Origin: a virus
Virus record (IMG/VR): IMGVR_UViG_3300035438_001058
Coordinates: 1 to 64,000 of that record
Direction: 5' to 3' (one strand)
DNA length: 64,000 nt
This document shows positions 10,529 to 62,487 of the stretch, piece after piece. Position 1 is the first letter of the stretch. Each line of letters starts with the position of its first letter. The notes under the pieces were generated by a model. It was not told the origin of the DNA, made no database searches, and worked only from the letters and a program-made list of their open reading frames with translations. The translations under genes were made by a program, and so were the position numbers.

Positions 10529-10549
10529 TTCGCGGAGTAGCGAAAAACG

Positions 10550-10584
10550 AAGGCCTCACCGCGCAATGCAGTGAGGCCTTTTTT
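10550..10584. terminator. Bidirectional rho-independent terminator
   Basis: A perfect 10-bp stem (AAGGCCTCAC with GTGAGGCCTT) and an 11-base loop are followed by a T run on the plus strand and by T-rich sequence on the minus strand. It lies between convergent genes and closes the giant-protein operon. Confidence 0.9.
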
Positions 10585-13046: not shown

Positions 13047-13404
13047 TCTTTCATTTTTTGATTATTTCGATGCTTATTAGCACGTCTTTTTGTGTTGATG
13101 GTAATAATAATAGTCAATCTACATCCTTCTGCATATACTTGAATATCTTCCATCTAAGGTCAAAATCAGGTCTACGAAGGCCTTTAGTTTCTATTATTCA
13201 CCCGTCTCCTATAAAGTCAGGTGTAAATACTATGTTCTGGTAACTTTGTTTTTTAAGTTTTAGAACTTTGCTTTTTCCTATTCGCTCTATTGCCGTTAAT
13301 TTAACGGCAAAGGAAGGGAACAGCTCATATGATTTCTCATATTCAAACTGTAACCCTTCCTTTGTGAGAGCTTCCGCGGCGAAGCGCTCTAAGCCGTTTC
13401 GCAT
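12898..13404 (-). CDS. Small PD-(D/E)XK nuclease, DUF1064/resolvase-like, four TGA(Trp)
   Basis: 168 residues from ATG 13404 to TAA 12898, with TGA as Trp at 13198, 13114, 13051 and 13030. The core VFTPDFIGDG-W-IIETKGLRRPDFDLRWK has the PDF...IETKG pattern of DUF1064/endonuclease-I-like enzymes that cut branched DNA. A standard-code reading stops just before the catalytic E-x-K and hides the gene. The last ~45 residues are Lys/Thr-rich and overlap the next gene. The nuclease call is firm on motif; the junction-cutting role is inferred. Confidence 0.7.
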
Positions 13405-23098: not shown

Positions 23099-24207
23099 GA
23101 TTTAGAGGGTAATGTGATGGCATCTTTGGTCCACCCTTGAAGAGTCTCCCTAATTTGCACCTGTAGCTGGGGTTTAGTGATCCCCTTGTGTGTAGCAGGT
23201 TTACCAGACTCTAAGGTCTTGATACCCATGTTAATCTCCACTATGCCAGCAAAAGCTTTTGTCTTTGCTGCATCATCCATTTTGATGTAGTAAGGAAGAA
23301 TTTTATCCATCCAGACTTGTGGTTTGTCTATCCCTAGAAATTCTAAGGCAGTTGTTATCTGGTCTGTGGCCTTCTTGTTCACCTTTTTCGGATCATTGTC
23401 CTTTTTCTCATCGTCTTTCTTGTCCTCGTCCTTCTTATCTTCTTTCTTATCTTCTTTTTTCTCTTCTTTCTTCTCAGCTGGAACGTCAAACATATCTGTG
23501 TTCAATGCGTGCTGAATTCCCTCTTTTGTTAAGGACAATTTAAGGGCAAGAACGACCTCATAAATTGTCAGAAGCAAGTGAAATGTTGTTATAATGACGC
23601 TACTCATCATAGCGCTATGAAGATTAGCAAAAGGAGAGAAAGTAGGTGGATACCTATTCTCTGCTATTACAGCCGTCAAGAAGGAAGGATGTAAAAATCC
23701 CATCTTCACCTTCATCATTACCCAGAAGCATTCTAATTGACCTGTGTTATGCACAGCGTTGGCCATAGCTAACATATTTACTATTGGAGCGCCGACAGCA
23801 AAGATGAAGGATATTAGAATAATTACTAGGATAGTAGAGCCTAAACCCATTCGCACCCCTATTGGTCTTGGTATAACAAATACGGAAACAAACTCGCCAA
23901 TAGCTTTTGCTAAGCCAAAAGCACCGACAGTACTGATAGCCGCTGCAATTAGGTGAACTGACATTCGCACCGTTACATTTGTCTTTTCGTCTTGCACTGA
24001 ACCTAGTAGTGCTGCTTCTGCTATCAACGCAGATAGTTGTAAACCTATTAGATAGGTAAAGTTGTACTTGATAATTGCTCTAGCTAAAAGAGCTGCAGGT
24101 TCTAATCCCTTTAATTTGGGATCTTTTTGTGCTTGTTTGTACAGGTAATAGGTCAAAAGACCTACGCAAACGAAGAAGGCGACAAATACTATCGTGCTCT
24201 CTATCAT
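23089..24207 (-). CDS. Polytopic membrane protein with charged linker (frameshift donor)
   Basis: 372 residues. Five or six hydrophobic segments lie in residues 1-230 (for example STIVFVAFFVCVGLLTYYLY and STILVIILISFIFAVGAPIV). A Lys/Glu/Asp-rich linker (KKEEKKEDKKEDKK) at ~245-280 leads to a soluble C-terminal domain of ~90 residues. The 0-frame product ends in TAG; ribosomes that slip would add the zinc-ribbon array. It shares its start with the polymerase stop. An inner-membrane platform is likely; the actual role is unknown. Confidence 0.7.
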   Translation of the reverse strand: MIESTIVFVAFFVCVGLLTYYLYKQAQKDPKLKGLEPAALLARAIIKYNFTYLIGLQLSALIAEAALLGSVQDEKTNVTVRMSVHLIAAAISTVGAFGLAKAIGEFVSVFVIPRPIGVRMGLGSTILVIILISFIFAVGAPIVNMLAMANAVHNTGQLECFWVMMKVKMGFLHPSFLTAVIAENRYPPTFSPFANLHSAMMSSVIITTFHLLLTIYEVVLALKLSLTKEGIQHALNTDMFDVPAEKKEEKKEDKKEDKKDEDKKDDEKKDNDPKKVNKKATDQITTALEFLGIDKPQVWMDKILPYYIKMDDAAKTKAFAGIVEINMGIKTLESGKPATHKGITKPQLQVQIRETLQGWTKDAITLPSKSKN

Positions 24208-26099
24208 TATTTATTCCATATTTTAGTTATTACTGCTTTAGCTGGGATATCTAAATGAGTAGTGTATTCTCTAGAAGCATCTAGGCAACACTTCTCTAAT
24301 ATCTTTGCGACAGTGTGTGAGAATTCGTCGGGGCATTCGAGTATTATTTCATCATGCACGAACAGTACGATTTTAAAAGGTATTTTTTTAGCAAATTTTC
24401 TAAGGAGAACTCCAGCCCTCTTACCTATATCGGCAGCGGTTCCTTGTACTGGAATATTCTGTGCCCATCTCTGTATTTTTGAATCCCAGTAACTATAGGC
24501 GTCTCTAATAGCTGGGTGTGGATCAGTGTATGTTAATCTGCACTTCTCCATGTACTTCTTGCACTCTAAATAATCATCAAAGAATGGAACAAATGACTTT
24601 CTACCGCTAACGGGGTTACAAACTACATATCCAAAATTCTTAGCCTCTAATCCTTGGTTGGAAAAGTATGCCTCAAGTTTTGGGAAGCTATCGTAATAAC
24701 CTCTAATAAGAGATTTTGCTCTTGTTATAGGAATATCAAATTGTTCCGAAAGTTTTTTAGCTCCTCCGCCGTAAGCTATCAAGAACCCTATGGACTTGGC
24801 TATACGACGTTCTTCGCTGTCTTTGGTCAAGTTCGGATCATTAAATGCGATCTTAGCAATCTCTAGGTGAAAGTCCGTACCGCTACCGCAAGCTTTGATC
24901 ATGTTTGGGTCTCCAGACTTATCCGCTATTATCCTTGCTTCTTGGTTTGAAAAGTCAGCCACTACAAACGAGTGGCCTTCTTCTGCCATGAAAGCAGATC
25001 TATAGACGTCACCTCTTGAAATATTCTGTAAATTAGGATTAGTGGAAGATATCCTACCTGTACGCATTACCTGCATGAAGGAAGAATGTACCCTTCCAGA
25101 ATAAGGGTTGATGTGCCTTAAAAATTTGTCCCCATAAGAGACTGCCTTTTTCTTGAGCATCTTGTAATCCAAATAAGTCTTGAGTATGCTAAACTTAGCT
25201 TCCTGTTTGAGAAGCACTAGTCTCCCTACACTCTCCTTTATTTCCCCAGTCTTTTTGTCTAGAGTAAGAACATCTACCCCTATTCCTTTCAGGGCGGTTA
25301 CAGCTTGTTTAGGGCTGTCCCAATTTATATCAAATTGGGCAAGTAATTGATCATGCAAACTCTTGGCTTGCTTAGCGACTTCTTGGGCATTACTAAGCCA
25401 CCTATTCCCTTCCAGGAATATTCCGTTTAGCTCCATATCTCCCAAAACCTTAATAAACTCAAACTCGAGTTTTAAGGTACGCTTTAAGTCCAACTCTCTC
25501 GCCTTCTCGACTAATTTCTTTTTTAGTAGAGCCGTGGCTTCCACGTCCATCGCTCCATAATATATTTGTTCTAAGGTAAACGGTGCATCCCCTATAGTGG
25601 AAAAAGAAGTCCGTACCTTTTTAGTAACTGTAGGCGCGAATAGATTGCCTTGGCCGCTGTAATAGGCTCTTACATACCTAGCAACGCATTGCTCGAGTGT
25701 GAAGTGGCCTTTAGGCGCATCTTTACCGCATTCAATAATCTGAGCGGCAATCATAGTATCCCAAAGATTCTCTAATCTTATCCCATAATTACTGGCTATA
25801 ACTTGGTAGTCATACTTGAGATTATGTCCGAGTATGGGCCTATTCGAATCTTGTATGCTTCTAAGTAGGCCTTTAGGGCAATGTTCTCTAGTGTCGATAA
25901 CAACTTGTGTGCCGCCATTCCCAAGTTGGAGCATGATAACCTGACGATCAAACAAATTAGTAAAATCACCAGTAGTCTCCGTATCGAGGCAAATTTCATC
26001 TCAGTCTTTTATTAGGTCCTGAATCTGGTTAAAAGTTATTTGGGAAATATCCCCCTGTTGTATGAGCCATACCCCTGTCGTAGATTGCTGTGTAACCAC
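24207..26099 (-). CDS. PolA-family DNA polymerase with 3'-5' exonuclease
   Basis: About 630 residues. The exonuclease motif LDTETTG lies just downstream of a TGA read as Trp at 26001-26003 (IKD-W-DEICLDTETTG), and GHNLKYDYQ gives Exo II. Polymerase motifs follow in order: VADFSNQEARI (motif A), RRIAKSIGFLIAYGGG (motif B) and LFVHDEIILECP (motif C). The start is uncertain: no ATG precedes the exonuclease, so GTG 26099 is proposed, which overlaps the upstream gene by 71 bases. This is the replicative polymerase of the phage. Confidence 0.9.
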
Positions 26100-26280: not shown

Positions 26281-26317
26281 AATTTTAATAAAGTGGGAGG
26301 GGTTAGGGCCCCCTCCC
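26281..26317 (-). terminator. Hairpin terminator after the M15 lysin
   Basis: GGGAGGGG and CCCCTCCC form a perfect 8-bp stem. On the minus strand it is followed by ACTTTATTAAAATT, a broken T run. It lies between the lysin gene and the small gene before the polymerase. Confidence 0.6.
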
Positions 26318-30055: not shown

Positions 30056-30061
30056 AGTTTA

Positions 30062-30090
30062 GGAGAGAGCCGATTTACGCGGCTCTCTCC
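30062..30090. terminator. Intergenic hairpin
   Basis: A perfect 10-bp stem (GGAGAGAGCC with GGCTCTCTCC) and a 9-base loop lie between the AAA+ gene stop and the next leftward start. The T run is on the plus-strand side, so on the minus strand it may act as a processing or stabilising hairpin rather than a full terminator. Confidence 0.55.
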
Positions 30091-30097
30091 TTTTTGT

Positions 30098-31456
30098 TTA
30101 GTTTAGTGCTGACGCCAAAAATGTGGCAAAATCGGGATCTTTGCCCCATGAATAGACTTCCCCCAACAGGTAATCTTTGGTAGTATCTGTTGGTAAAGTC
30201 CACACTTTTGTGGGGTACATTGTCTTGAGTGTATCATACAAAGGCCGCCATTGTGTGGGGGCCAATTTGTTGATATGCAGCAAGATCTGCATACGTCCAT
30301 CTCGCAGTAGATCCTGAGACATGGACTCTTCAGTCTGTGTCGCAAGTACTATTGAGACGTTCGAAGCGTCATCCAATCCCTCAGTGGCCGACAACAATGC
30401 TTTGGTCAGTGCAGGATTAAAGCCTGCTTCGTCGATGACCACAACTACGTGTTTTCCCAACTCCGGAAGTCTAGACTTCGCGAGTGGGTTTTCCATCATG
30501 TTGATGAACTGTTGACCAGTCGCTTTAACAACAGTCAATCCAGCTTTACCAGCCATAGAAATGAACAGACGCAAAACGCTGCTCTTACCGGAAGCTGGTT
30601 CGCCGAATAGAGAAAAGCAAAATTTCTGCTTCTTCATTAGTTCCAGGACACTGTCCAAGAACTTCTGAAGTTTAACAGTCTGCTTCTTCTCCGAGGTAAT
30701 CGCTGGGTATGACAGTTGCAACGGCGGCTGCACCGCGTGCATACGAACTGCATCCCAGACAAAAGAGGAGGGGCTTTGTTCTGCATACACGTAAACTGAG
30801 GCTTTTTGTTCCTCAGTTTTTACCAGCGGCTTGTACTCTACAAATAAGTCCTTTACGTGCTTGCGCACGTCTGGAATTATTGTTATTTGACAGCCGTCTT
30901 CACAGTTTGATGGAAGGTACGCCGTTATCCGTGACAGAATGTTGACTTTTCCGTCAGAGTTTAAAGGCACCTCCTCCGCCGTGACATCACAGTTCTCTAA
31001 ACTCCACGGTGAATACTCCGCCTTTAGTATCAACGTGTTGGGACGTGGGTCCTCAAAGTCTCGCCGGGATTTTGCCAGCACCAGAAACATCGAGCTGTCC
31101 TCATAATCCGCGGTGGTCTTCCACTCTTTGGTTACATAATAACCAGAGCTTATAATCCTATCAATAAAAACGTCCGCTAAGACATTTCTAGTAGTGATGG
31201 ATATAGCTTGGTAAAATTTAGATCCATCGAGATTCTGAGCAAGAAACTCAGTGACCTTGTCGTACCCCAACAAGCTCTCCAAGCTCTCAATTCCTCTGAC
31301 GATTTTTCTAAGATTATTAGACACGCTCGCCACTTCAGCGAGGAAAGATTCACCAGTTTCCAAACCTCTGTCGGCTTGTTCTTTGGCGATGTAAGTAAGG
31401 TACATCATCCCTAGAGTTAAGGCGACGACGCAGAAACAAATAACTAACCAAGTCAT
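30098..31456 (-). CDS. Membrane-anchored AAA+ ATPase, 452 aa
   Basis: Residues 1-23 form a membrane anchor (MTWLVICFCVVALTLGMMYLTY). A coiled-coil-like stretch follows to ~65, then a domain of unknown type, then an AAA+ module with Walker A GEPASGKSS (285-293), Walker B VVVVIDEAG (~338-346) and a sensor-like SIVLATQTEE. All Trp codons are TGG and no TGA occurs inside. The anchor puts the ATPase on the inner membrane. It is not adjacent to the MoxR/VWA pair; a remodelling role at the envelope is inferred. Confidence 0.75.
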   Translation of the reverse strand: MTWLVICFCVVALTLGMMYLTYIAKEQADRGLETGESFLAEVASVSNNLRKIVRGIESLESLLGYDKVTEFLAQNLDGSKFYQAISITTRNVLADVFIDRIISSGYYVTKEWKTTADYEDSSMFLVLAKSRRDFEDPRPNTLILKAEYSPWSLENCDVTAEEVPLNSDGKVNILSRITAYLPSNCEDGCQITIIPDVRKHVKDLFVEYKPLVKTEEQKASVYVYAEQSPSSFVWDAVRMHAVQPPLQLSYPAITSEKKQTVKLQKFLDSVLELMKKQKFCFSLFGEPASGKSSVLRLFISMAGKAGLTVVKATGQQFINMMENPLAKSRLPELGKHVVVVIDEAGFNPALTKALLSATEGLDDASNVSIVLATQTEESMSQDLLRDGRMQILLHINKLAPTQWRPLYDTLKTMYPTKVWTLPTDTTKDYLLGEVYSWGKDPDFATFLASALN

Positions 31457-31705: not shown

Positions 31706-32242
31706 TCACATAGATTTTAAAATCTCTATCCTCTTCCGTAAAGAAGGGATGTATAATTTGTCTTCAGCATATCTAGCCCCTCTGAGGTGGGGGAGATCTT
31801 CAAGTAGCTTCATATACTCCTCATTGTTATGTGGAGTTCTATTCTGCACAGCTGCTAACCTCAACATCATGCTTTGGTATTCCTTGTAATCCAGAATAGA
31901 TAGAATGATGTTCTTGTAGTAAGCGTGGCCGTTTTTCTCACCAGCACAAAACCCCCTCTTATTCAATTTCATGCCAAACATATTATTGTTTTCATGAAAT
32001 ATTTTAGAGGTGCAGAAATTAGTTTCGTGCACCATTTGCGCTGTAACTACTTCAGGAAATTTAATTCCTATACGTTGCAGGTATATGCACCAGCCCTTAT
32101 AAACAAAGGCGGTGTCAATGTCAGTCGTCAATCTCTTTGGCGAGATCGTCGATGTCTCTGTGGACGCCTGAAACCAGATACGTCCCCCCAACAGGATTAC
32201 GCCTGCGAGTATTATTAGGGTTATAACCAGACAGCTTCGCAT
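31706..32242 (-). CDS. Glucosaminidase-like lysin (GH73/FlgJ type) with signal anchor, TGA as stop
   Basis: 178 residues. A signal segment lies at residues 3-22 (SCLVITLIILAGVILLGGRI). The catalytic domain has VVTAQMVHETNFCTSKIFHENNNMFGMKLNKRGF, the E-x-N...NN-x-F-G-x-K pattern of GH73 glucosaminidases, and DYKEYQSMM near the end. The likely catalytic Glu is in VHETN. It ends at TGA 31706, where the domain naturally ends; reading on would add ~32 residues of low-complexity sequence. The 250 bases leftward hold no gene I can support. Confidence 0.7.
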   Translation of the reverse strand: MRSCLVITLIILAGVILLGGRIWFQASTETSTISPKRLTTDIDTAFVYKGWCIYLQRIGIKFPEVVTAQMVHETNFCTSKIFHENNNMFGMKLNKRGFCAGEKNGHAYYKNIILSILDYKEYQSMMLRLAAVQNRTPHNNEEYMKLLEDLPHLRGARYAEDKLYIPSLRKRIEILKSM

Positions 32243-33217: not shown

Positions 33218-33231
33218 AGGTTCAATTTAAT

Positions 33232-33258
33232 AGGGGGAGTATATTTCAACTCCCCCCT
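33232..33258. terminator. Intergenic hairpin
   Basis: AGGGGGAGT and ACTCCCCCCT form a strong stem with an 8-base loop between the acidic protein gene and the next leftward gene. On the minus strand it is followed by ATTAAATTG, so termination is weak; attenuation or RNA stability is possible. Confidence 0.55.
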
Positions 33259-33264
33259 GGTTAT

Positions 33265-34308
33265 TTATGCTTCAATTTCGATTGATTCTGTTAGCGCCAC
33301 TTTAGCGTCCAACAGTACTGCAGCCTCTTTTACACTGCGAAGTGCAGCTTTGGTGATGCTATCTTTCTGATCTTCCAGTGCTGCGAGTGCAGCCTTAATG
33401 CTCTTTTCAGCAGCGCTGATTGAGTCATAGGCCGTTTGGAGTTCGTCGGCTTTCAGGCCAAACTGTCCGGCAACTGCGGGTAGAGACTCTTCGTAAGCCA
33501 CAGGAAGGGATTCCACCGCTTCTGTGGAAGGCAGCTCGGCCTCTTCCTCTGCAGAGAACAGAGATTCTACCGCTTCTGCGGTTTCTGTCTCCGTCAGTGG
33601 GGTGAACGCTTCTGGGGTCTGGATTGGCCCGAATGTCTCGGCCAGCAGTTCTGCTGCAGATCCGGCTTCAGATCCGGCTTCGGTGGGGTTTCCTCCCAGC
33701 ATTGTTGTGATGAGCGACAACGTCATTTCGACGTCTTCTGCTGGCACCTCAGCGGGGTGGTAAAACGGAAACTCTGGGGAAGCTTGGTAAGCTTCGAGTT
33801 CCGCTTTTTGAAAACCTGCTACTACGCCACTCCAACGTGGAGAGGCAATCAGCTCTTGGTTTTCGTCGGATAGGTCCTCCCCACGCACAAGTTGCGAGAA
33901 AACATCATAGCACAGCAGTTGAACTGCTTCTCCTTCAGGAGTCAGCCCCAACTGTTCGCGCGTTATAGATTTTACAGCCTCAGCTGTCAGATTCAGGAGA
34001 CCAATGGTCTTTGTCATGTTGAGAGAATTTATGGTTAAAAAATTTGTGTTCTTCTCCTCTATAAGGAGCAATCCCCCAGGTACATTGTTGTACCTATGTG
34101 CGGTTTCTAAAGCTCTTGTTATGTAGACTTTAGGACCACGCCCTGTAAAATGGTCTGATATCACGCATACTGACGGGATAGCAAGATAGCTACGCGCTGG
34201 CTTGGTGTGGGTAAGACACCAAATACCGGAAGCAGTAGCAAATCCTGGACGCATTTTTTTGCATTTTTCGAAGCAGTTAAAGTAACTGAAAATCTCTATC
34301 TGCAACAT
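33265..34308 (-). CDS. Acidic protein downstream of the VWA gene, 347 aa
   Basis: The N-terminal ~100 residues are mixed (RGPKVYITRALETAHRYNNV), while residues ~190-290 are Ala/Glu/Thr-rich with repeated AVESL units (TAEAVESLF, STEAVESLP), and the C-terminus is a helical KSIKAALAALEDQKD region. It overlaps the VWA gene by 32 bases. Start: ATG 34308, although MRPGFATASG slightly downstream is possible. It may be a partner or substrate of the MoxR/VWA pair; this is inferred from position only. Confidence 0.55.
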   Translation of the reverse strand: MLQIEIFSYFNCFEKCKKMRPGFATASGIWCLTHTKPARSYLAIPSVCVISDHFTGRGPKVYITRALETAHRYNNVPGGLLLIEEKNTNFLTINSLNMTKTIGLLNLTAEAVKSITREQLGLTPEGEAVQLLCYDVFSQLVRGEDLSDENQELIASPRWSGVVAGFQKAELEAYQASPEFPFYHPAEVPAEDVEMTLSLITTMLGGNPTEAGSEAGSAAELLAETFGPIQTPEAFTPLTETETAEAVESLFSAEEEAELPSTEAVESLPVAYEESLPAVAGQFGLKADELQTAYDSISAAEKSIKAALAALEDQKDSITKAALRSVKEAAVLLDAKVALTESIEIEA

Positions 34309-35401
34309 AATACGCTTGCCCCCCTGAATTTTTACATAGTGTTACCAGCTTTGTATTTTGTTCTTCTATGATAAACGCAGTTATTGGAATTGAAAATTCC
34401 TTTAGATCTACGTCATCTTGCCCATCATTTATAATCACGATCTCTGTACGTTCCGGAAGCTGGATATCATCTAAGAACCCAGTTTCCATTGATTGTCTCA
34501 GTTCTTCTAATACACCACCTATGTATGTAGTCCCCCCATTTGGATCCCTATACTGTTTGGATTTAAAATAGTCGATAGCAGAGGCACTGTCTAGTAATAC
34601 ACATTTATCTCGAGTAGTTTCGAAATAAGACAATAATATCACAGAATTACCCGCCAGTACCATCTCAAATAGACCATCCAGTATTTTTGTTACGCATTGG
34701 ATTTTGTCATCATTGCTCATAGAACCGCTATCATCTAACAGAACTACGAGGTATTGTCGCTCCTCTTCATACTTTAAAGGTAGGGCTATCTCTAGCTTTC
34801 CTTCTGCCATGTTGAAAAAGAACTCGTCATCATCTAAGCACAAAGATTCTTCTGTTAAAAAGTCAATGTGTTCAGATTTCCTATAATACTTTCTAGCTGC
34901 GGCTACTCTTGGTTTGCCGTAAACTAGATTTTTTTCAGTAATTTCGGCTCTTTGCATAACCTCAGAAAATCCTATATCAGGAATATCTTCTGATGCTTCA
35001 AGAGACTCATCCCAGTCGAGTGGTGTAAAGTCTCTAGAACCTTCACCTCCTTTTTTGTCGCCAGTACGCTTCTCTTCTCTCTCCATTTTCTGGAGCATAT
35101 CCTCAAGCTCACCATTTTCTGCTAAGCTGTTTAAGGACGAGTCTGGGTAAGTAGACAACATCTCAGCATATTTCCAGCCGATATCCATAATGTCTGACGT
35201 ATCTTCAGCAATTCTGCTTTCAATAGCACTCAGCCACTTTAAATCTTCGGGTATATCGTAAACCTCTTGGAATACCTCTCTTGATGCTGCTGCAGTTATG
35301 ACAGACATCATACGCAGAGCTCTAGCATTTAGCTCTTTTGCTTGAGGCAGAGCTCTTAACTCATCTACAGAAGGAGGTGCCCATTTATAAGGCTCTATCA
35401 C
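34277..35401 (-). CDS. VWA-domain protein partnered with MoxR ATPase
   Basis: 374 residues with start GTG 35401, which shares bases with the MoxR stop (GTGA). The MIDAS motif DDSGSMS is at residues 223-229, with later NGGTTYIGG and a DGQDD stretch completing a von Willebrand factor A domain. The N-terminal half is helical and acidic. MoxR ATPases typically act with an adjacent VWA protein as a substrate adaptor that remodels protein complexes (CbbQ/CbbO, NorQ/NorD, RavA/ViaA). It ends in TAA. Confidence 0.85.
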   Translation of the reverse strand: MIEPYKWAPPSVDELRALPQAKELNARALRMMSVITAAASREVFQEVYDIPEDLKWLSAIESRIAEDTSDIMDIGWKYAEMLSTYPDSSLNSLAENGELEDMLQKMEREEKRTGDKKGGEGSRDFTPLDWDESLEASEDIPDIGFSEVMQRAEITEKNLVYGKPRVAAARKYYRKSEHIDFLTEESLCLDDDEFFFNMAEGKLEIALPLKYEEERQYLVVLLDDSGSMSNDDKIQCVTKILDGLFEMVLAGNSVILLSYFETTRDKCVLLDSASAIDYFKSKQYRDPNGGTTYIGGVLEELRQSMETGFLDDIQLPERTEIVIINDGQDDVDLKEFSIPITAFIIEEQNTKLVTLCKNSGGQAYYVADRDFQLL

Positions 35402-36393
35402 AGCCTAGGCCTTGATAGGTTCTCAATAGCGTTTTGCTGGAGAGCTTGCGCTTTCTTTACCAGGCCCTTCAATCTGCCAGAGTAAACCCCATCAGTTGGG
35501 ATAACTTTAAGGTTTCTGATCAGTCGTTGAGCCAGAGCGAGCAGTTTTAGATGCTGCTCTACGTTCGTGGTTACTTCCGCCAAGTTGACGGTTTTCTCTA
35601 TCTCCTCGATTTCCGCTATATACGGGAATGAGGCTTCTAGAGCCAACAACTCGTCGTAAACCATCTGCGTCATACCCCTAAAGGTGCGCAGTGCTTGTAG
35701 TCCGCCGATTTCATGAATTCGGCGCATCATCATTACATCTCTAGGGGATACTTCAAATCCCAAATCATGGCACTTTTCTGCGATGCGAGCAACTTGAAGA
35801 TCTGAAAAGCCTCTAGCCTCGAACATGGATTGAAAGTCATTAGCGGTGTAGCTAGGCCACTCAACTTTATGAGTGAACGCAAATCGACCTAACAGGGCAT
35901 TGCGACTCTGGTCCTTCCCTGCCCATTTAAGAGGGTCTACATTTGTGCAAATGATAAGGGTTTGCAACTTATTAGGTTCGCATACCCCGTTAATGCAAAT
36001 GTAACCTCTCTGTAGACCATCTTTTAAGGACAGCAGGAGATCGTCAGGTGCGTCAAATCCTTCTTCAAGGATCGCGTACCGGCTTTTGAGAAACACAGTA
36101 TCTTCAAGCACTGTTTTCCGTTTACCCTCTTCTCTGAGGGTTTTGATGTCTGTGTACCCGACAAAAGGGCTCGCATCCATCTGCTGGGAGCAGGAAGCGA
36201 TGTACGTTTCTCCGTAAAAATTGGGCGTCATTATTTTCAAACAAGCCTCCGCTATGTCTGATTTTGCGTGACCGCCCGGTCCGTGTAGAATTATGTTACT
36301 CTTTGACTTTAGAGCGTAGTAAATCGCTTCTGCAGTCGTCTGAGAGTGAACAAACTGGGACGTGATGGTATTCAAAAATTCTGGTAATTCCAT
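35398..36393 (-). CDS. MoxR-family AAA+ ATPase
   Basis: 331 residues. Walker A is GPGGHAKSD (residues ~38-46), the Walker B region is ILEEGFDAPDD, sensor 1 is LIICTNVDP, and GRFAFTHKVEWPSY is the arginine-finger region, in the order seen in MoxR proteins. Next to it, overlapping by four bases, is the VWA gene. The stop is TGA followed at once by in-frame TAG. MoxR/VWA pairs act as chaperones that load metals or remodel complexes; the target here is unknown. Confidence 0.85.
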   Translation of the reverse strand: MELPEFLNTITSQFVHSQTTAEAIYYALKSKSNIILHGPGGHAKSDIAEACLKIMTPNFYGETYIASCSQQMDASPFVGYTDIKTLREEGKRKTVLEDTVFLKSRYAILEEGFDAPDDLLLSLKDGLQRGYICINGVCEPNKLQTLIICTNVDPLKWAGKDQSRNALLGRFAFTHKVEWPSYTANDFQSMFEARGFSDLQVARIAEKCHDLGFEVSPRDVMMMRRIHEIGGLQALRTFRGMTQMVYDELLALEASFPYIAEIEEIEKTVNLAEVTTNVEQHLKLLALAQRLIRNLKVIPTDGVYSGRLKGLVKKAQALQQNAIENLSRPRL

Positions 36394-36399
36394 TTTTTT

Positions 36400-36427
36400 T
36401 GGAGAGAGGACTTAATGCCTCCCTCCA
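36400..36427. terminator. Intergenic hairpin with flanking T runs
   Basis: TGGAGAGAGG pairs with CCTCCCTCCA (one mismatch) around an 8-base loop. T8 lies on one side and T6 on the other (plus strand), giving A-rich flanks for the leftward transcript. It separates the glucosaminidase from the MoxR gene. Confidence 0.55.
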
Positions 36428-36431
36428 TTTT

Positions 36432-37085
36432 TTAATCATACTTGTGTAAATCGTACGTCTCGATTACCCGCACAATCGTGGCGGCATAATCTGGTGCAGT
36501 TGCATACCCGCATTTTTGAAGCCCCGACGCCCACGACCGATAGTCTTTTGACCAAAACAGCCGCTTGTAACGCTTTGCCTTCAAGAATGCCGAGTGTCTT
36601 TTGTAAGACTCTTCCGCACTCGTGAACTTCAGGAAAAAATCTTTGTGGGTATCATCCGTGTAATTCGAGCAGTGGCCCCTTTTGCAGGCTTTTGAAAAAC
36701 ACTTCAACCCAAAATGGTTGTTGTTCTTCACGGCCAGTGAGGACGTGCCCGCTCTAGACTCTATTAGCCCCTGAGCTAAGGTTATAGAGGCAGGGATTCC
36801 TGTGTTTTTTGCTTCCCGTTGGGCAATCCGAGCGAATTTCGCGATATACGCTGGTGCGTCATATTGCGGGGGCATTGCCGGGGCTTGTGGGTTAGCCGCC
36901 TTCTTTTTGACGGGCTTATAAACCATCTTTTCCGGGGCCTGTACTGCCTCAGGGATTGGTTTTGCCACTGCATAGGCGTACACCAGCCGTGGACTTGGGT
37001 TATCACTCGTCAACGCGGTTACAGCACATCCAATGGTAGCTGTACCTGTCGCAAAGAACAACACAATGCCCACTTTGGTGTGCAT
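36432..37085 (-). CDS. Glucosaminidase (GH73/FlgJ-type) endolysin
   Basis: 217 residues from ATG 37085, chosen because MHTKVGIVLFFATGTATIGCAV forms a signal sequence; a longer frame back to 37229 also exists. After a Pro/Lys-rich linker, GIPASITLAQGLIESRAGTS gives the catalytic Glu, and NNNHFGLKCF, AEESYKRHSAFL and the final YAATIVRVIETYDLHKYD complete a typical glucosaminidase domain. It would cleave peptidoglycan glycan chains. It ends in TAA. Confidence 0.85.
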   Translation of the reverse strand: MHTKVGIVLFFATGTATIGCAVTALTSDNPSPRLVYAYAVAKPIPEAVQAPEKMVYKPVKKKAANPQAPAMPPQYDAPAYIAKFARIAQREAKNTGIPASITLAQGLIESRAGTSSLAVKNNNHFGLKCFSKACKRGHCSNYTDDTHKDFFLKFTSAEESYKRHSAFLKAKRYKRLFWSKDYRSWASGLQKCGYATAPDYAATIVRVIETYDLHKYD

Positions 37086-37288
37086 ATTGACACTCTTAAA
37101 AAACTTTATTTGTATGAGGAACCACTCATGCAGTTCCAAATCCCTCACACTTTTTGTCTTTCTATATGGTTGCAGTTCCATACTAAAAAAATTTTGAGAT
37201 TTAAAAATAGACTTGTATTTGAACATCAAAGACCGCCCTGTGAATCTTTGTCGATGTGCAGTACAAGCCTTTGCCAGGACTTGAGTTG

Positions 37289-38967: not shown

Positions 38968-39280
38968 ACTCGAATTTTTTTCGGGGGTGGAACCCGTTTT
39001 GACGAAAATGCTCTGCCAGGCTCTCTACTATATTGTAGTTCTCGTCTAGCTCGGTAATTACCGTTTTTACTTTTCCGTATCGCCAGATATGCTGGTTCCT
39101 GACGACGGTAATTTTTGAATTTGATAGCTCGTCTACTATCCGAGGGATAGTGTACCCCTGTTCGTGCATATCCTGGATCATGGATACGCAGAGCGACATC
39201 GACGGCGAGTGTGTGGAGAGCCGTAAATTCTCTGCTACAAATCGCAGTGCAAAAGCGGCCCCCTTTTCGAATTCTGTCAT
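38948..39280 (-). CDS. Unknown protein, 110 aa
   Basis: The start is fixed by an ATGA overlap with the upstream stop. A helical protein with a possible helix-turn-helix-like stretch (EQGYTIPRIVDELSNSKITVV); DNA binding is only a suggestion. It ends in TAG after a basic tail. Confidence 0.55.
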   Translation of the reverse strand: MTEFEKGAAFALRFVAENLRLSTHSPSMSLCVSMIQDMHEQGYTIPRIVDELSNSKITVVRNQHIWRYGKVKTVITELDENYNIVESLAEHFRQNGFHPRKKFEYGKRKS

Positions 39281-40191
39281 AATCCGAATCTTACGTTTAT
39301 GGATGAAGCCAGATTTTTTATAGGGCTCACACCCCTCTGGCCGTTTTTGATTTCACTGTAGTCTACTAGCCATCCAAACTGAATGGCTTTTTTGTACTTT
39401 ACCTGCAGTAAAGTCTTAATACCAAACCCATTGTAAAATGGATTGGTGGGTAAAAAGAGTTTACTGTTTATGATACTTGTCGCCATGCTAGTAATGTCGT
39501 CAGCGAATGGTATGTGCAGTTTGGATATTTCTGCGTTTACCATTTCTGATACATCAGGTACTAGCCCGACATTGTTTGAGGCATCAAGTGATGTTACCCA
39601 GTAGGGGTAAACATTTCCTGATATCCCCCATTTTTTGTACGGGGACGACTTTAATGAGGGGCTGATAATGTTGTACATATTCAGCTCTACCCTAAGATCA
39701 ACCCTGCCACTAATGAGTGGCTTACTAGCCTCCTCTTTGAGGGCCGCAATTGCGAGCTCCTCTAATAGGTGGCTTCTGTCAGTCAAAAGATCAGCTATTA
39801 AGCCGATTGATTTTGCTGAGTATATACTGGGTTGCTCCATTCTACCTTTACCCCATTGTATAGAGGCTTGGGCGTACGGTATTCCCAGAGTCACAGATTT
39901 GGTAATCTCAAATCCTCTAAAGGATTGAGTTCTTACCCCTGTAAGTGGGTTAATATCCATCAAGATGTTTTCGACACCTATTGGGATATTGAATCCTATC
40001 TGATTTTCGACATCATGAATGTCGCTCTGATTAATCTTGGCATCAAAATACTGTTCTAGATCCACTGTTGAGGTGGAGTAACGGTATTGTATGCCATTGT
40101 TCACATCCACCACACTGTGGCTCAGGAATCTACTAAAGTAGCCCTGAGCCTGTGCGGATGTAGCGATCAGCACTAAAATGACGACCCTCAT
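39277..40191 (-). CDS. Secreted outer-membrane-like protein, 304 aa, TGA as stop
   Basis: A short signal peptide (MRVVILVLIATSAQAQ) precedes a beta-rich protein whose C-terminus ends in Phe-Gly-Leu after alternating hydrophobic residues (SSINVRFGL), as in outer-membrane beta-barrel proteins. It starts in an ATGA overlap with the T9SS-type gene and ends at TGA in another ATGA overlap. It may work at the outer membrane with its two upstream neighbours. No specific family is recognised. Confidence 0.6.
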   Translation of the reverse strand: MRVVILVLIATSAQAQGYFSRFLSHSVVDVNNGIQYRYSTSTVDLEQYFDAKINQSDIHDVENQIGFNIPIGVENILMDINPLTGVRTQSFRGFEITKSVTLGIPYAQASIQWGKGRMEQPSIYSAKSIGLIADLLTDRSHLLEELAIAALKEEASKPLISGRVDLRVELNMYNIISPSLKSSPYKKWGISGNVYPYWVTSLDASNNVGLVPDVSEMVNAEISKLHIPFADDITSMATSIINSKLFLPTNPFYNGFGIKTLLQVKYKKAIQFGWLVDYSEIKNGQRGVSPIKNLASSINVRFGL

Positions 40192-40826
40192 TTAATAAGG
40201 GTTATGTCGCCAAAGTATGTCAGGCCATCGGTTGTGATGACCCATATATACACGGCTGGCGGATAATTTGCACCGTCCCAGCCACTAAACTCATCATTGG
40301 TGTAAAAGCCAGAGCGGCTCCACACCTCTGATCCCCAACGGTCGAACACCATCATCTCCTCAATGAGGATACTCTCCTCACTTATTGGATAGATGAAGGC
40401 GTTTATTGTGTCCCCGTTAGGACTGAACGCATTCGGCACCCAAAACTTGGCCTTTTTCTTAGGCCCGACAATTGCTGTATCAATAACAGCTGTGTCGATG
40501 GGTGTATCACAACTAGTGGCAACAACCACCTGATCGTATGCGCCAATGGTGGACTTTCCGTCATCATTGACTAACACGATTCTAGTGTACCACAACGTGC
40601 CTGGCGTTGTGATAATAATCATTGTAGAGTCTTCACCTCCCCCAAACACATGGCCGAAGGGAAGCTCATACTCAGCACTACCTCCCGTTATATCAAACGT
40701 GGAGTACGACCCAGTGGCTGGGTCTGATGTTTCATACAGGTAAAATGGTTCGCCTACGCAAACCTCCTGTTGGGCTGCCACTCCTGTACTCAGTAGCAGC
40801 AGCCCTATTAGGACCCTATAGATCAT
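40188..40826 (-). CDS. Secreted protein with type IX secretion (type B) C-terminal sorting domain, TGA as stop
   Basis: 212 residues from ATG 40826, chosen because MIYRVLIGLLLLSTGVAAQQ is a signal peptide; upstream in-frame codons lack one. Residues ~128-212 form a gliding-motility-type sorting domain (CHU_C, T9SS type B): VPNAFSPNGDTINAF, MMVFDRWGSEVW, FSGWDGANYPPAVYIWVI and the end GDITLIK. In Bacteroidota this domain directs export across the outer membrane. The TGA stop falls exactly where the domain ends. The cargo part (~100 residues) is small and beta-rich. A phage-encoded T9SS substrate is unusual. Confidence 0.85.
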   Translation of the reverse strand: MIYRVLIGLLLLSTGVAAQQEVCVGEPFYLYETSDPATGSYSTFDITGGSAEYELPFGHVFGGGEDSTMIIITTPGTLWYTRIVLVNDDGKSTIGAYDQVVVATSCDTPIDTAVIDTAIVGPKKKAKFWVPNAFSPNGDTINAFIYPISEESILIEEMMVFDRWGSEVWSRSGFYTNDEFSGWDGANYPPAVYIWVITTDGLTYFGDITLIK

Positions 40827-41514
40827 TTTTATATAATTTTTTGGGGGTTGTCCCCCGTTTAACATATACCCCAATAGACGCGGAGTGCATACGTGCCGTA
40901 TTAACTACGGACGTAATGTCTACGTCTACTTGGAGCATTGCTCCGATCTTAACACCTGAATCAAACAGGTGCCCTATCCCAACTTTTATTGGGATGATTT
41001 TGCCTGAGTTCCGGTGTAGCGCGTTTTTTTTACGAATCATTGGCATTGCTGCCATCTGATCGTTCGCGCTTTTTAATGAGTTCAGTATTGTGGGGCGTCC
41101 GAACCCCTTATCGTAGACCAGCTTATAGCCGATCTTGAGGGTTACGAACTGATACCCCCCGGACAGGGCGAAATCTTCCCCGAACCCAGCCTCGATTGAG
41201 GCGGATAGGTACTGAAGTGCCGACTTAGAGGTCGACACTTCTGCCCGCAAGAATGCGGGGAAGGTTTCGTAATACGCTTCCGCATTCACCCCGAAAGATG
41301 GGGCGAATATGAAGCGTTTTAGCGACTTTTTGTAGTCGCTGAGCTGGATATTTTTGTCCTCCAGATAGGACACCAGATCGGTATTTTCATACCGGATCTT
41401 GGGGCTCAAGACCCCGAAGCCTGCAGACAAACCGTAGTCGATTTGCTGGGCGTACGTAGCGGTGGTAAGAAGCAGGAGGAAAACTATCCCCCTGCCCTTG
41501 ATTTTGTTATGCAT
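40816..41514 (-). CDS. Outer-membrane beta-barrel-like protein, 232 aa
   Basis: Signal peptide MHNKIKGRGIVFLLLLTTATYAQQ, then alternating beta-strand sequence typical of small Bacteroidota barrels (DYGLSAGFGVLSPKIRY, FALSGGYQFVTLKIGYKLVY, KIIPIKVGIGHLFDSG). Directly upstream of the T9SS cargo gene, the usual place for a PorP/SprF-like partner of type B substrates. That pairing is inferred; the family was not verified. It ends in TAG, overlapping the cargo start. Confidence 0.65.
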   Translation of the reverse strand: MHNKIKGRGIVFLLLLTTATYAQQIDYGLSAGFGVLSPKIRYENTDLVSYLEDKNIQLSDYKKSLKRFIFAPSFGVNAEAYYETFPAFLRAEVSTSKSALQYLSASIEAGFGEDFALSGGYQFVTLKIGYKLVYDKGFGRPTILNSLKSANDQMAAMPMIRKKNALHRNSGKIIPIKVGIGHLFDSGVKIGAMLQVDVDITSVVNTARMHSASIGVYVKRGTTPKKLYKNDL

Positions 41515-46623: not shown

Positions 46624-46956
46624 ATGAACAGGAAAATGACAAATAACGCTAATTCTCAGCACGCTCAACAAGCAGCTATGAATCACCAAATGCACACACA
46701 CTCTATTACCGTACTTACTGAGTTGTACAAGAATACGCCAATTGAATCTAATTTAAGGCCAGCACTTGAGGAGGCATTACTAGGATTGCTAGAGCCATTC
46801 TTACCTAGGTTAGCTGCTCCACCAACATTTCAATCAACACTTGAACCAACATTTCAATCAAAAAGTATTCAATCAGAAGGTATTCAATCAGAAGGTGTTG
46901 TCTTAGACACCTATAATCCAGATTACACTTATACAGAATCTAAAATTATTCAGTAA
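46624..46956 (+). CDS. Unknown protein with short repeats, 110 aa
   Basis: The start MNRKMTNNANSQH (ATG 46624, two bases after the preceding stop) is preferred over an in-frame ATG at 46600. A His/Gln/Asn-rich N-terminus, a helix, and a tail with repeats (PTFQS twice, IQSEG twice). The DNA shows short direct repeats (ACATTTCAATCA). Its stop overlaps the GroES-like start by one base. Confidence 0.5.
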   Translation: MNRKMTNNANSQHAQQAAMNHQMHTHSITVLTELYKNTPIESNLRPALEEALLGLLEPFLPRLAAPPTFQSTLEPTFQSKSIQSEGIQSEGVVLDTYNPDYTYTESKIIQ

Positions 46957-47321
46957 TGGTTTTAACTCAAGATAAAGTACTTATTCAGTTGGATGAACAT
47001 CCAGATCACACTGTGACAGAATCTAATATTTATATCCCACAGTTTATAAATGCTGAGTCAGATGGTGGGCGCCCAATGTCTATTCCTTCTAATCAGAAGT
47101 ATCTAGCTTCAGGTGTTGTGGTTGATTTATCAGATGCGGCTAAAAAGAAGATGGAAGATAACAACACTCCTATTAAGAAAGGAGATAAAGTTTTCGTATC
47201 TACATCGGTAGTTAACCAAGGTTATCATTTTCAACTTAAGAGAGATTCTATAGTTTATGATTTTGATGGTCTAGTACTAATTCCAACTATATTAATAGAG
47301 GCAATATTAAATGAAAAATAA
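46956..47321 (+). CDS. GroES-like co-chaperonin
   Basis: 121 residues. The order LTQDKVLIQLDE...IYIPQF, ASGVVVDLSD, IKKGDKVFVST and VYDFDGLVLIPTILIEAI matches the GroES beta barrel (P-L-x-D-R-V; GxVVAVG; xVKVGDxVLF; DGxxYLxxxESDILAI). It would cap the phage GroEL encoded 3 kb downstream. The mobile loop region is divergent (SNIYIPQFINAESDGGRP). Confidence 0.65.
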   Translation: MVLTQDKVLIQLDEHPDHTVTESNIYIPQFINAESDGGRPMSIPSNQKYLASGVVVDLSDAAKKKMEDNNTPIKKGDKVFVSTSVVNQGYHFQLKRDSIVYDFDGLVLIPTILIEAILNEK

Positions 47322-49042: not shown

Positions 49043-49099
49043 ATCGCTAACAGTCGTTAGGTCTCGCCCTCCATGTCGTAAGATGTGAGGGGGCAATTC

Positions 49100-49171
49100 G
49101 GGGATATGGGGTAATCGGTAACCGGGAAGTCTTCAAAACTTTAGTTGTCTGTTCGAGTCAGACTGTCCTCG
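49100..49171 (+). tRNA. tRNA-Trp(UCA), opal (UGA) decoding
   Basis: Acceptor GGGGATA/TGTCCTC with two G-U pairs; D loop AATCGGTA with A14 and GG; anticodon arm GAAGT-CTTCAAA-ACTTT with anticodon TCA at 49133-49135; T arm GTCTG-TTCGAGT-CAGAC; discriminator G, as in bacterial tRNA-Trp. The tRNA has no encoded CCA. It would read UGA, and UGG by wobble, as Trp, which matches the use of TGA in the flanking genes. Confidence 0.9.
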
Positions 49172-49188
49172 CCCACAAAATTTTTATT

Positions 49189-49698: not shown

Positions 49699-49944
49699 AT
49701 GACTATAAAGGTTAATATTTCTTTCGAACTTTGGCCATATCAACAGTCTTACTCAGTAGAAATACCAGAAGATAAGTTTAAGGAAATGGATAAGTATGTG
49801 GATTCTATAACATCTAATTTAAAGATGTCATTATTATCCCATGTACGTGTCCATCACCCTAATTTATGGTATAAATATTCTCCTTTAGAAGATCAAATAC
49901 TGGCAACTTTAAAAATAGAAAATCACACACACAAAATTAAATAA
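49699..49944 (+). CDS. Unknown protein, 81 aa
   Basis: Beta strand then helix (MTIKVNISFELWPYQQSYSVEIPEDKFKEMDKY). The stop overlaps the GroEL start by one base (TAATG), so they are co-translated. No family is recognised. Confidence 0.55.
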   Translation: MTIKVNISFELWPYQQSYSVEIPEDKFKEMDKYVDSITSNLKMSLLSHVRVHHPNLWYKYSPLEDQILATLKIENHTHKIK

Positions 49945-51545
49945 TGACAAAGAATATTCATTTAGAAAAAGAAACACGAGATAAAATGCTGGAAGGTGTT
50001 TTAACTTTGGCACACGCAGTAGGATCTACACTAGGACCAATGGGGTCAAACGTAGTAATTGAGACTCCTTACGGAGCTACCACAGTTACTAAGGATGGAG
50101 TCACTGTAGCTAAACATATTGATTTAGATGATGCTGTGCAAAATTTAGGAGCGCAGATATTAAAACAAGCTGCTTCAAGAACAGCTACTCTTGCTGGCGA
50201 TGGTACAACAACTGCTACTGTAATAGCTGCGTCTTTAGTACAGTCTGCGCATAAATTAATTACTGCGGGTGTGAAGCCTATTGATATTAAAAGAAGGTTA
50301 GAAATTCTCTTATTAGAAGCTCTGAATAAGATTCGGATTCAAGCTAAGAGTGTTGACCTTAATAGGATTAAAGAGATCGCCACTATCTCAGCAAATAATG
50401 ATGAGGAAATGGGGGCTTTAATTCAAGACGCTTACAACCATGTTGGCCCCAATGGAATGATCACTTTAGAGGAATCTAAGACAGGTCTAACTCATTTGGT
50501 TATGGAAGAAGGAGTTTCTATTGACAAAGGATTTGTATCTCCTTATTTTATCACTGATTCTGCAAAAGGAGAATGTATTCTAGAGAATCCATTTATCTTT
50601 ATTACTGATTCTAAAGTTAGATATACTCAAGATATAGTACCTATATTGGAAATTGCTGCTTCTAAATCAAGGCCCCTTCTTATTATAGGAGACGAAGTAG
50701 ATGCTCAAGCTCTTCAGTTGCTCGTACTAAATAAGATGCGCGGGACAATACAAGTATGTGCTATAAATGCCCCTTCTTTTGGGGATAACAGAACAGCGAT
50801 ATTAGAAGATATTGCTGCCCTAACATCTACTACTATTATAACCGCTAAAGCTGGCACTAGGTTAGAGGATACTCCAGAAAGAGCATTAGGAAATGCTCAA
50901 AAAGTTATCATATCAAAGTCGAAGACTATATTAGTAGGACCTAAGAATAACTTAGAGGCTATTGAGTCTAGAGCTGAAGAAATTCGTAACTCTATGGAAT
51001 TGGAGCAAGATCTTTATTTAAAGAATAGACTTCAAAAAAGATTGGCTGATCTTACTGCTAAAGTAGCTGTGCTTCATGTTGGGGGAGCTACTGAAACTGA
51101 ATTAAAAGAACGCAAAGATCGTGTAGATGATGCTCTAAGGGCTACTGCTTGTGCCATACAAAAAGGTTACCTTATTGGCGGCGGTGTAGCTCTAGCTCGT
51201 GTGTCTTCTTTCATAGAGATAAAAGATGCTTTAATAGATCCTATTTTTATAAACGCACTAACATCCCCTCTAAAATTAATAGCTTCAAATGCAGGGCAAA
51301 CAGGAGAAGTAGTTTTAGCTAAAGTTTTATCTTCAGAAGATCTTGATATTGGTTTTAACGCTCGCACGCTCAAGTATTCTAATTTATTAGAGGATGGTGT
51401 AATAGATCCCGCGTTAGTAGTTGAGCAAGCACTCTCAAACGCAGTATCAGCGGCTTCTATGATATTACTTTCTGCTACGGCAATCACAAATAAAGATAGA
51501 AAACCTCCTTTTAATCCAGGTAATATGGAAGATTATGCTGCATAA
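49944..51545 (+). CDS. groEL: Chaperonin GroEL (phage-encoded)
   Basis: 533 residues, close to normal length. Visible motifs: STLGPMGSNVVI near the N-terminus, the ATP motif AGDGTTTATV (~residues 80-89), and VDDALRATACAIQKGYLIGGGVALAR with the catalytic Asp and GGG. The C-terminus (NPGNMEDYAA) lacks the GGM repeats of bacterial GroEL. It folds phage proteins, with the GroES-like protein as probable partner. It ends in TAA, eleven bases inside the terminase. Confidence 0.93.
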   Translation: MTKNIHLEKETRDKMLEGVLTLAHAVGSTLGPMGSNVVIETPYGATTVTKDGVTVAKHIDLDDAVQNLGAQILKQAASRTATLAGDGTTTATVIAASLVQSAHKLITAGVKPIDIKRRLEILLLEALNKIRIQAKSVDLNRIKEIATISANNDEEMGALIQDAYNHVGPNGMITLEESKTGLTHLVMEEGVSIDKGFVSPYFITDSAKGECILENPFIFITDSKVRYTQDIVPILEIAASKSRPLLIIGDEVDAQALQLLVLNKMRGTIQVCAINAPSFGDNRTAILEDIAALTSTTIITAKAGTRLEDTPERALGNAQKVIISKSKTILVGPKNNLEAIESRAEEIRNSMELEQDLYLKNRLQKRLADLTAKVAVLHVGGATETELKERKDRVDDALRATACAIQKGYLIGGGVALARVSSFIEIKDALIDPIFINALTSPLKLIASNAGQTGEVVLAKVLSSEDLDIGFNARTLKYSNLLEDGVIDPALVVEQALSNAVSAASMILLSATAITNKDRKPPFNPGNMEDYAA

Positions 51546-53778
51546 TGCACAAAATTTCTTAGTCAAAGATGTGGAAATTCTCCATCCTTTGTCTCAAGAT
51601 TATCGTTCTTATTGAAGAGAACACAAAAGAAGATGTATTGAAGGTTATTGGGTGGGTGGCATTTGGATGCCGCCTGCCCTTTACTATTATGTAAACTTTC
51701 ATACTATAAAACTTAATAAAAGTATTCACACTAATACTAAGTCGTACGGTAGACCTTTGTTACGGGATATTGAGTGGGAATTTTTCTATAATTATTCTGA
51801 AGCGAGAGGTTTCTCAGGTTTTAAGAACGATGATAAGTATTCTTGTCATAGAATACTTTTGAATACTGAAGCTACAGACGATTACTTAATTAAATATTAC
51901 CCAGAGACTGTAAATTCTAAGGGGGAAAGAAAGACTTACGTGCCAGCTAGGACGTATATGCGTCAAGTACATCCTTTTGAATCTTCTCCTTTGTTTCAGA
52001 ACGAGATTAGGAATTTTATGATGTTAGGATCTCGTGGATTTGGTAAATCTTTCTCTGTATCAGGACTCATAGCTCATAATTTCTTATTTGATGGAGCTAC
52101 TGAATACAGCGAGGAAAAGATAATGAATCCGGACGCTGCTGAGATATTAGTAGGGGCGGCCAAATCTGATAGATCCGCAGATATTCTTAAAAAAGTGAAG
52201 GATGCATTTGATTTTTTACCCGGAAAACAGATGGTTAATAATAGGACACATCCATCACCATTCTCTAAACGATTTAGCGGATCTTGAGCAGTTAATTCCA
52301 CTATTGCAGCAGAATATAAACGTAAAACAGAAGGTCAATGAACCACAGTAGGTTCCAGATCTAATATAAAGCACAGATCTTTCAACTCAGATGCTTTTGC
52401 AGCTCAAGGAACCAGGCCCATTTTACTAGTTTTGGAGGAAATAGGTATGTTTCCTAATTTAAAGGAAGTACACGCTAACACAGTGGATAACTTAACTGAC
52501 GGTTACCGTAAGACTGGTATGGCTATGATGTTAGGAACAGGTGGTGACATGGAACAAGGTACTTTAGATGCTTCTGAAATGTTTTACGAGCCTGATAAAT
52601 ATGATATATTGTCTTTTTCTAATGACTGAGAGAGTTCTGGTAACATAGGATACTTTGTTCCAGCGTATTTAGCGCTCAATCAATTTAAAGATGCGCAAGG
52701 AAATACCGACATAGCGGCTGCTAAGAAGGAGATTGATTCTGTTAGGCGCAAGAAACGTGGAAACTCAGGATCTTCAGATGCGTTGAATAAGGAAATGCAG
52801 TATAGACCTATTGTTCCATCTGAAATGTTCTTAACTAAGACAGCTAACATCTTTCCTGCCGCTGAAATTAGGAGAAGGCTTTCAGAAGTGCAGTCATTTG
52901 ATCTGTATAACCAGTCAGAGAAGAAAGTTAATCTATATTTCGACCCAAAATCTCAGTTTAATGGTGTATCTTACAATATAAATGACTCTTTAAACGCCAT
53001 TAGCTCGTTCCCGTACAAGGGAGATGATAGAGAAGGGGCTGTTGTTTTATACGAATTACCTAAGTTTATAGAAGACAAGGTCCCGTCAGATGCCTATATT
53101 ATAGGATGTGACCCATTTAGAGATGATACGAATACAGGAGAATCTTTGGCAGCTATATATGTTATGAAAACCTCTAAATACATATCTAGTATAGGGTATG
53201 ATGAGATAGTAGCCTCGTATATTGGTAGACCATACTTCGGTAAAAATGAGGTAAACGAAACTCTATATAAATTGTCCTTATTTTATGGGGGTGCTAAGAT
53301 TTATTTTGAGAATGCAGTAGGAAATGTAAAAGATTACTTTGAGAAAATCAGAAGACTAGACTTATTAGCTAGGCAACCAGTCACAGTTTTTAATAAGAAA
53401 GCTTCTTATGATTCATCCCCGCAAGTTATTTATGGGTACCCAATGTCTAATGATAAAGTAAAATGAGAAGCGATACAATACTTACGCTCTTGGTTATTGC
53501 AAGAACGTGAAGAAAATAAAAGAAATCTGGATTTAATTATAGATCCAGGCCTACTTCAAGAGTTATTGGCCTTTAATATGAGTATAAATACTGATAGAGT
53601 AATGTCTTTAGTAGGTTGTATAATAGGATTAGAAGAAATAAACAATATCTCGAAAAGAAAGCAAGAGTTTTTGTCTGAAGATAGCGCACTTCAGAAGGAC
53701 ATTAATAGGTTAATTATAAATAATAAACGTTTATTTCAAGATGTTAAATTTCCCAAAGCAACGTCTCTCCTATTCTAA
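51535..53778 (+). CDS. terL: Terminase large subunit, five TGA(Trp)
   Basis: 747 residues from ATG 51535 with TGA as Trp at 51613, 52285, 52339, 52627 and 53464; a standard-code annotation breaks it into five or more pieces. The N-terminus (RSY-W-REHKRRCIEGYW) is typical of crAss-like TerL, where this Trp is a fixed residue. Walker A is LGSRGFGKSFS, Walker B LLVLEEIGMF, and the nuclease has IIGCDPFRDD. It packages genomic DNA into the procapsid. It is the best single proof that TGA is Trp in this part. Confidence 0.95.
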
Positions 53779-62481: not shown

Positions 62482-62487
62482 TCAACA

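Follow-up and report, generated by a model that had tools for sequence, protein, structure and literature searches.

A Divergent MoxR–VWA Gene Pair with an Adjoining Acidic Open Reading Frame in a Crass-Like Phage

Introduction

MoxR–VWA pairs are widespread; in these pairs the VWA protein picks the client via its MIDAS, which the MoxR ring then remodels at the expense of ATP. Viral pairs are already known in the archaeal virus ATV, in N4-like phages, in haloarchaeal viruses, and in jumbo phages, and the pair that we describe here is a divergent addition to them. The ATV pair is the only viral one with biochemistry that we found in the literature searched: p618 is a MoxR ATPase of the virion that hydrolyses ATP and binds the VWA protein p892 as well as virion proteins, and a role for p618–p892 in tail development has been inferred (PMC4124505). 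The gp24 (a MoxR-like ATPase) and gp25 (which contains a vWFA domain) genes of N4 are core genes of the N4-like phages that are middle-transcribed and have no assigned role (PMC4193335). A pair found in the jumbo phages of group 2.2 has been proposed to act in virion assembly (PMC7824862), and haloarchaeal siphoviruses likewise carry a pair (PMC7911831). Among cellular systems, RavA–ViaA acts with complex I (PMC3893208), and bpMoxR proteins belong to ternary systems composed of MoxR, vWA, and β-propeller proteins (PMC7159879).

Here we analyze a pair found in a stretch of 64,000 bases (hereafter the window), which represents positions 1–64000 of a virus record of 85,208 bases. As judged from its portal (phrog_6547, E 3e-117; approximately 30% identity to portals of the Suoliviridae and Steigviridae) and its major head protein (phrog_11589, E 4e-67), the window phage is divergent and either belongs to the Crassvirales or is related to them.

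Results

Organization of the Trio

Three consecutive open reading frames, encoding a MoxR-type ATPase, a VWA protein, and an acidic protein, in that order, all lie on the minus strand (Table 1). This strand, the early one, also carries genes for DNA polymerase A (24207–25955), helicases, a primase-like protein, and an exonuclease VIII-like PDDEXK protein, and the structural genes, including those for the portal and the MCP, are located on the plus strand, apart from the trio. The sequence GTGA is common to the stop codon of the MoxR gene (TGA, 35398–35400) and the start codon of the VWA gene, which bears out the four-base overlap described in the initial annotation, and no notable hairpin is present at this junction (RNA fold z −1.2). 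Because hairpins stand on both sides of the trio, the arrangement suggests that the three open reading frames form a single transcription unit.

Table 1. Coordinates of the trio and its flanking hairpins in the window
Feature	Coordinates	Strand	Evidence or remarks
MoxR-type AAA+ ATPase, P0001, 331 aa	35398..36393	-	bpMoxR, AAA_5, phrog_19600, AAA+ fold
VWA-domain protein, P0002, 374 aa, GTG start	34277..35401	-	VWA_CoxE, MIDAS alignment, VWA fold
Acidic orphan ORF, P0003, at most 347 aa	33265..34308	-	candidate starts 34308, 34254, 34017
Hairpin in gap between upstream glucosaminidase gene and MoxR start	36393..36432	-	RNA fold -17.0 kcal/mol, z -4.7
Hairpin directly past stop of acidic ORF; stem 33233-33256	33225..33264	-	-17.9 kcal/mol, z -3.0

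P0001 exhibits all of the core elements expected of MoxR AAA+ ATPases: Walker A (GPGGHAKS), Walker B (ILEE), sensor 1 (N151), an arginine finger (GRF), and sensor 2 (SPR). Alanine replaces the usual second-last glycine of Walker A, a change also seen in some members of the related set that we call group A (see below), and glutamate replaces the aspartate of Walker B, where group A has asparagine. The best Pfam match was to bpMoxR (E 4.9e-6, 26.2 bits against a cut-off of 27; 27.4 bits in a second search), followed by a match to AAA_5 that was at the cut-off (E 1.7e-4, 22.0 bits). Comparison with PHROGs yielded the ATPase family phrog_19600 (E 1.2e-3) and a weak match to phrog_1297, the family of N4 gp24 (E 0.22 in one search and 0.005 in another). 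An AlphaFold2 model of low to medium confidence (pLDDT 60) has an AAA+ fold, for which NorQ (Z 10.4) and CbbQ (Z 10.1) were tied with many other AAA+ proteins.

P0002 matched the Pfam families VWA_CoxE (9e-4) and VWA_2 (5e-3), both under their cut-offs. Its MIDAS is complete (D223, S225, S227, T292, and D326), as seen in an alignment with 13 related VWA proteins (A11). When residues 211–373 were modelled, a VWA fold was obtained (best Z 9.4 over 128 residues, 4.0 Å), and the top structure matches of the C-terminal half of the protein were VWA domains. The AlphaFold2 model of P0002 is of low confidence (pLDDT 46), and a Foldseek search with it returned nothing at E 0.001 or better. Residues 1–210 are mostly helical in the low-confidence model and matched no family. 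P0002 is also acidic, with a pI of 4.3. Gene order, motifs, family matches, and folds thus sustain the core of the initial annotation, namely that a phage carries a MoxR–VWA remodelling pair.

The third open reading frame had been described as an acidic repeat protein whose gene overlaps that for the VWA protein. The acidic character is evident: the last 250 residues have a pI of 4.1, with 46 D/E against 14 K/R. The repeats are slight, consisting of one 22-nt direct repeat and one 12-nt repeat present in 2.4 copies. As for the overlap, it holds (at 32 nt) with the first ATG, at 34308, but not with the later ones, the ATG at 34254 leaving a gap of 22 nt and that at 34017 a gap of 259 nt. The frame stays open through the stop codon of the VWA gene, and codon usage in its first 97 codons is near background (0.03 bits per codon, versus 0.215 for the rest). 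Profile searches assigned P0003, which the initial annotation put forward as an adaptor or target, to no family, no relative was found (the IMG/VR scan included), and searches of Pfam, NCBIfam, and PADLOC detected no VMAP, iSTAND, or β-propeller domain in it.

MoxR–VWA Pairs in Environmental Crass-Like Phages

A portal-based scan yielded 80 IMG/VR contigs, and our family search covered 27 of these and the record from which the window is taken. Six records besides the window had an AAA_5 match above the cut-off; when the count is restricted to crAss-like records that were selected by their portal and are 50 kb or longer, the figure is six of 13. A VWA gene directly follows the MoxR gene in five records, which fall into a bpMoxR-like group A (G006, G014, and G039) and an N4 gp24-like group B (G034 and G038). 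A third type, which is CobS-like (phrog_249, E 5e-47) and adjoins a DUF7192 gene, was clear only in G022. As P0001 had no match of this type among those listed, we did not adopt a CobS/CobT role in cobalamin synthesis for it.

A scan with the group A MoxR protein identified 25 loci, 19 of which have at least 300 bases downstream. In all 19 of these testable loci (about 14 of them distinct, since several are near-duplicates) a VWA gene comes directly after the MoxR gene, with a gap of −55 to +76 nt. The glycine, lysine, and threonine of Walker A, the WDRF arginine finger, and the MIDAS are invariant in 13-sequence alignments (A7 and A8) of group A. In most of the loci that were read, the gene order is helicase, Sak4-like ATPase, SSB, primase, RusA, exonuclease VIII-like PDDEXK protein, MoxR, and VWA, where only the exonuclease was profile-tested and the names SSB, primase, RusA, and Sak4-like are readings of the translations. 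The group A pair usually closes this replication and recombination block.

Group B proteins match phrog_1297 (E 1.6e-20), and the pair is present in five of five records. Here the VWA gene is followed by a conserved third gene of 162–165 codons whose product begins MEFL (L102, L103, L140, and L141) and is not similar to P0003. The MIDAS of group B is incomplete. Thus, the order MoxR–VWA is kept throughout the testable loci of both groups, and the integrity of active-site residues in relatives, which the initial annotation had put forward as a check, was borne out in group A and not for the MIDAS of group B.

Environmental crAss-like phages, then, repeatedly carry MoxR–VWA pairs, and this recurrence is among the new parts of our findings. 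We found no report of such pairs in crAss-like phages in the literature searched, whose coverage left out most subscription journals. When INPHARED was searched by tblastn with the proteins of groups A and B, no crAss-like record was among the matches listed.

The Window Pair Stands Apart from Groups A and B

The best families of P0001, bpMoxR and phrog_19600, are those of group A, and the window pair resembles group A in consisting of two adjoining genes in the same order, in having a complete MIDAS, and in lying on the early strand. It differs from group A in sequence: when the two are forced into alignment, identity is about 18%. Indeed, group A profiles run against the 258 open reading frames of the window did not raise P0001 (E 7.3) or P0002 (E 1.2) above background, group B profiles did not pick out the pair, and hhalign gave short local matches only between the pair and group A. 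The setting differs as well: group A pairs adjoin exonuclease, RusA, and primase genes and have no acidic third gene, whereas the window pair sits at 34–36 kb and does not follow a PDDEXK/exonuclease gene as the group A pairs do. The exonuclease gene of the window (12009–13046) is 21 kb away and has no adjoining MoxR gene.

Searches for closer homologues were negative. Among 50,697 phage records of INPHARED, tblastn with P0001 gave no match up to E 10, and P0002 gave marginal VWA matches only (E 3–10), to Gordonia and Pseudomonas phages. IMG/VR scans with P0001, P0002, P0003, and alignments headed by P0001 and P0002 produced no confirmed relative, nor did a scan with P0001 of bacterial genomes, one for each species; these negatives, that for INPHARED included, hold at the sensitivity of the searches. 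A sequence search of the PDB and a search of PADLOC-DB returned no convincing match. By all of these sequence comparisons the window pair is an apparent orphan, recognised by superfamily models only. Since profiles, hhalign, and homologue searches fail to tie the pair to the others and it lies off the group A position, we regard it as an orphan lineage of its own, which either evolved fast or was acquired independently.

N4 gp24 and gp25 resemble the window pair in combining a MoxR-type ATPase with a VWA protein in the early or middle region of a lytic phage, and group B adds a third gene after the VWA gene, but P0001 is weak on the N4 family, and group B departs in its MIDAS and in a third gene unrelated to P0003. 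In ATV, too, a MoxR ATPase of a virus is partnered by a VWA protein; p618, however, is a virion component of an archaeal virus, and no sequence relation to it was detected in the searches made. The bpMoxR ternary systems, NorQ–NorD, and RavA–ViaA are akin to the window pair through its best Pfam match and through NorQ and CbbQ among the tied structures, but these are bacterial systems of conflict or enzyme activation, and no β-propeller partner was found in the window.

Surroundings of the Trio

Two glucosaminidase-domain genes flank the trio on the early strand (36432–37229, minus strand, E 4e-32; 31706–32242, minus strand, E 3e-10). The product of a gene at 40188–40874 (minus strand) contains a CHU_C domain, a type IX secretion signal (E 7e-9), and two genes beside it (39277–40191 and 40816–41514) have signal peptide-like starts. 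A second AAA+ protein (30098–31456, minus strand; Pfam AAA, E 2e-5), with an apparent N-terminal membrane segment, had no relative in the loci searched. About 200 loci were searched for relatives of the early genes at 26–45 kb, and none turned up outside L130, which is a contig of the window phage itself and stops at about 29.4 kb. The initial annotation had drawn on the position of the pair next to envelope and lysis genes in proposing a function. This clue does not carry over to related phages, where group A pairs adjoin exonuclease, RusA, primase, and SSB genes instead. No relative has such surroundings, and we have dropped lysis neighbours as a clue to function; because that neighbourhood is seen only in the window phage, it does not support a role in lysis or at the envelope.

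Other features of the window deserve mention. GC-rich hairpins are concentrated between genes: the intergenic gaps make up 11% of the window but hold eight of its 17 strong hairpins, at 2318–2345, 10549–10581, 13379–13402, 26295–26317, 30061–30091, 33233–33256, 62487–62518, and 63812–63839. The terminase frame (51421–53778, plus strand) is open over 785 residues when six TGA codons are taken as Trp, and long plus-strand frames, including 5945–10528 and, in record coordinates, 66827–71587, hold two to four TGA codons. Late-strand genes are interrupted by TGA only, many early minus-strand genes terminate normally at TGA, and a tRNA(UCA) is located at 49099–49175. As frames are broken only by TGA and this tRNA is present, the evidence points to recoding of TGA in the late genes of the window phage, a phenomenon already described in other crAss-like phages (PMC7886860). 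The plus strand also carries a phage tmRNA (48478–48760; Rfam RF00023, 54.6 bits, above the gathering score) with a long tag of 33 residues ending in QYA, and, in the late region, genes for a GroEL-like chaperonin (49944–51545; Pfam Cpn60, E 6e-61) and a GroES-like protein (46956–47321; Cpn10, E 6e-6).

Discussion

What might the trio do? Our preferred reading, to which we assign a probability of roughly 0.4, is that it is an early-strand unit in which a MoxR ring and a VWA adaptor remodel an early or middle phage complex, most likely one of replication and recombination, with the acidic protein as an accessory. By analogy with RavA–ViaA, NorQ–NorD, CbbQ–CbbO, and ATV p618–p892, we infer that P0001 and P0002 form a complex with ATPase activity and a client. 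The MIDAS of P0002 would bind an acidic residue of that client, and the P0001 ring would spend ATP to pull on or reshape it. The client would be a complex of the early or middle stage belonging to the replication–recombination machinery, and P0003 may serve as an accessory or bridging subunit that only the window phage has. An early phage complex is the likeliest client because of the early-strand position of the trio and the position of the pair in the replication block in group A, and replication–recombination is favoured because in related crAss-like phages the pair closes that operon. Synteny is an indirect argument here, since the group A and group B profiles miss the window pair and its position differs. 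The substitutions in Walker A and Walker B and the low confidence of the models also count against this reading.

An unlikely but serious alternative, in line with a suggestion of the initial annotation, is host takeover, in which the pair would inactivate a respiratory, envelope, or defence complex of the host or put it to a new use. Cellular MoxR–VWA pairs act on specific enzyme complexes, RavA–ViaA and complex I being an example (PMC3893208), and the early position of the trio, among genes found only in the window phage, is what would be expected for host-specific functions. The two neighbouring glucosaminidases and the protein with a type IX secretion signal are in keeping with such a role. 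Repeated retention of pairs beside replication genes in relatives, however, suits a phage client better, and the search of PADLOC-DB gave no convincing match.

Doubtful, too, is a virion-assembly chaperone, in which the pair would mature or disassemble a structural complex in the tail or portal region, as proposed for ATV and the jumbo phages of group 2.2. ATV p618 is in the virion, binds p892, and has an inferred tail role (PMC4124505), the jumbo phage pairs were proposed for assembly (PMC7824862), and the INPHARED matches of a group A MoxR protein were, among the matches listed, ATV-type viruses only (E 6e-4). Against this, the trio belongs to the early strand and lies away from the structural genes, and in group A the pairs lie within the replication block. 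Finally, that the pair is a remnant, decayed or without function, of a MoxR–VWA operon from a bacterium or phage, as its divergent Walker A and B motifs, its orphan sequence, and its scores at or under family cut-offs might suggest, is very improbable given that both frames are fully open, the MIDAS is complete, the sensor and arginine-finger residues are kept, and the 4-nt overlap is retained in a compact genome.

Returning to a client in replication and recombination, we can entertain, as a speculation that we think unlikely, a broader scenario in which the Crassvirales recruited MoxR–VWA pairs several times into replication–recombination, for the loading, unloading, or recycling of nucleoprotein complexes, with the window phage having acquired its pair independently, along with an acidic cofactor of its own.

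What is new is the recurrence of these pairs in crAss-like phages, their location mostly beside recombination genes in one lineage, and the existence, in the window phage, of an orphan pair that an acidic gene follows. Among viruses, the client of a MoxR–VWA pair is known only in outline, and for one archaeal virus. The near-constant place of the pair beside recombination genes in one crAss-like lineage leads to a testable hypothesis as to its client, for a phage module whose annotation otherwise reads unknown or cobalamin synthesis.
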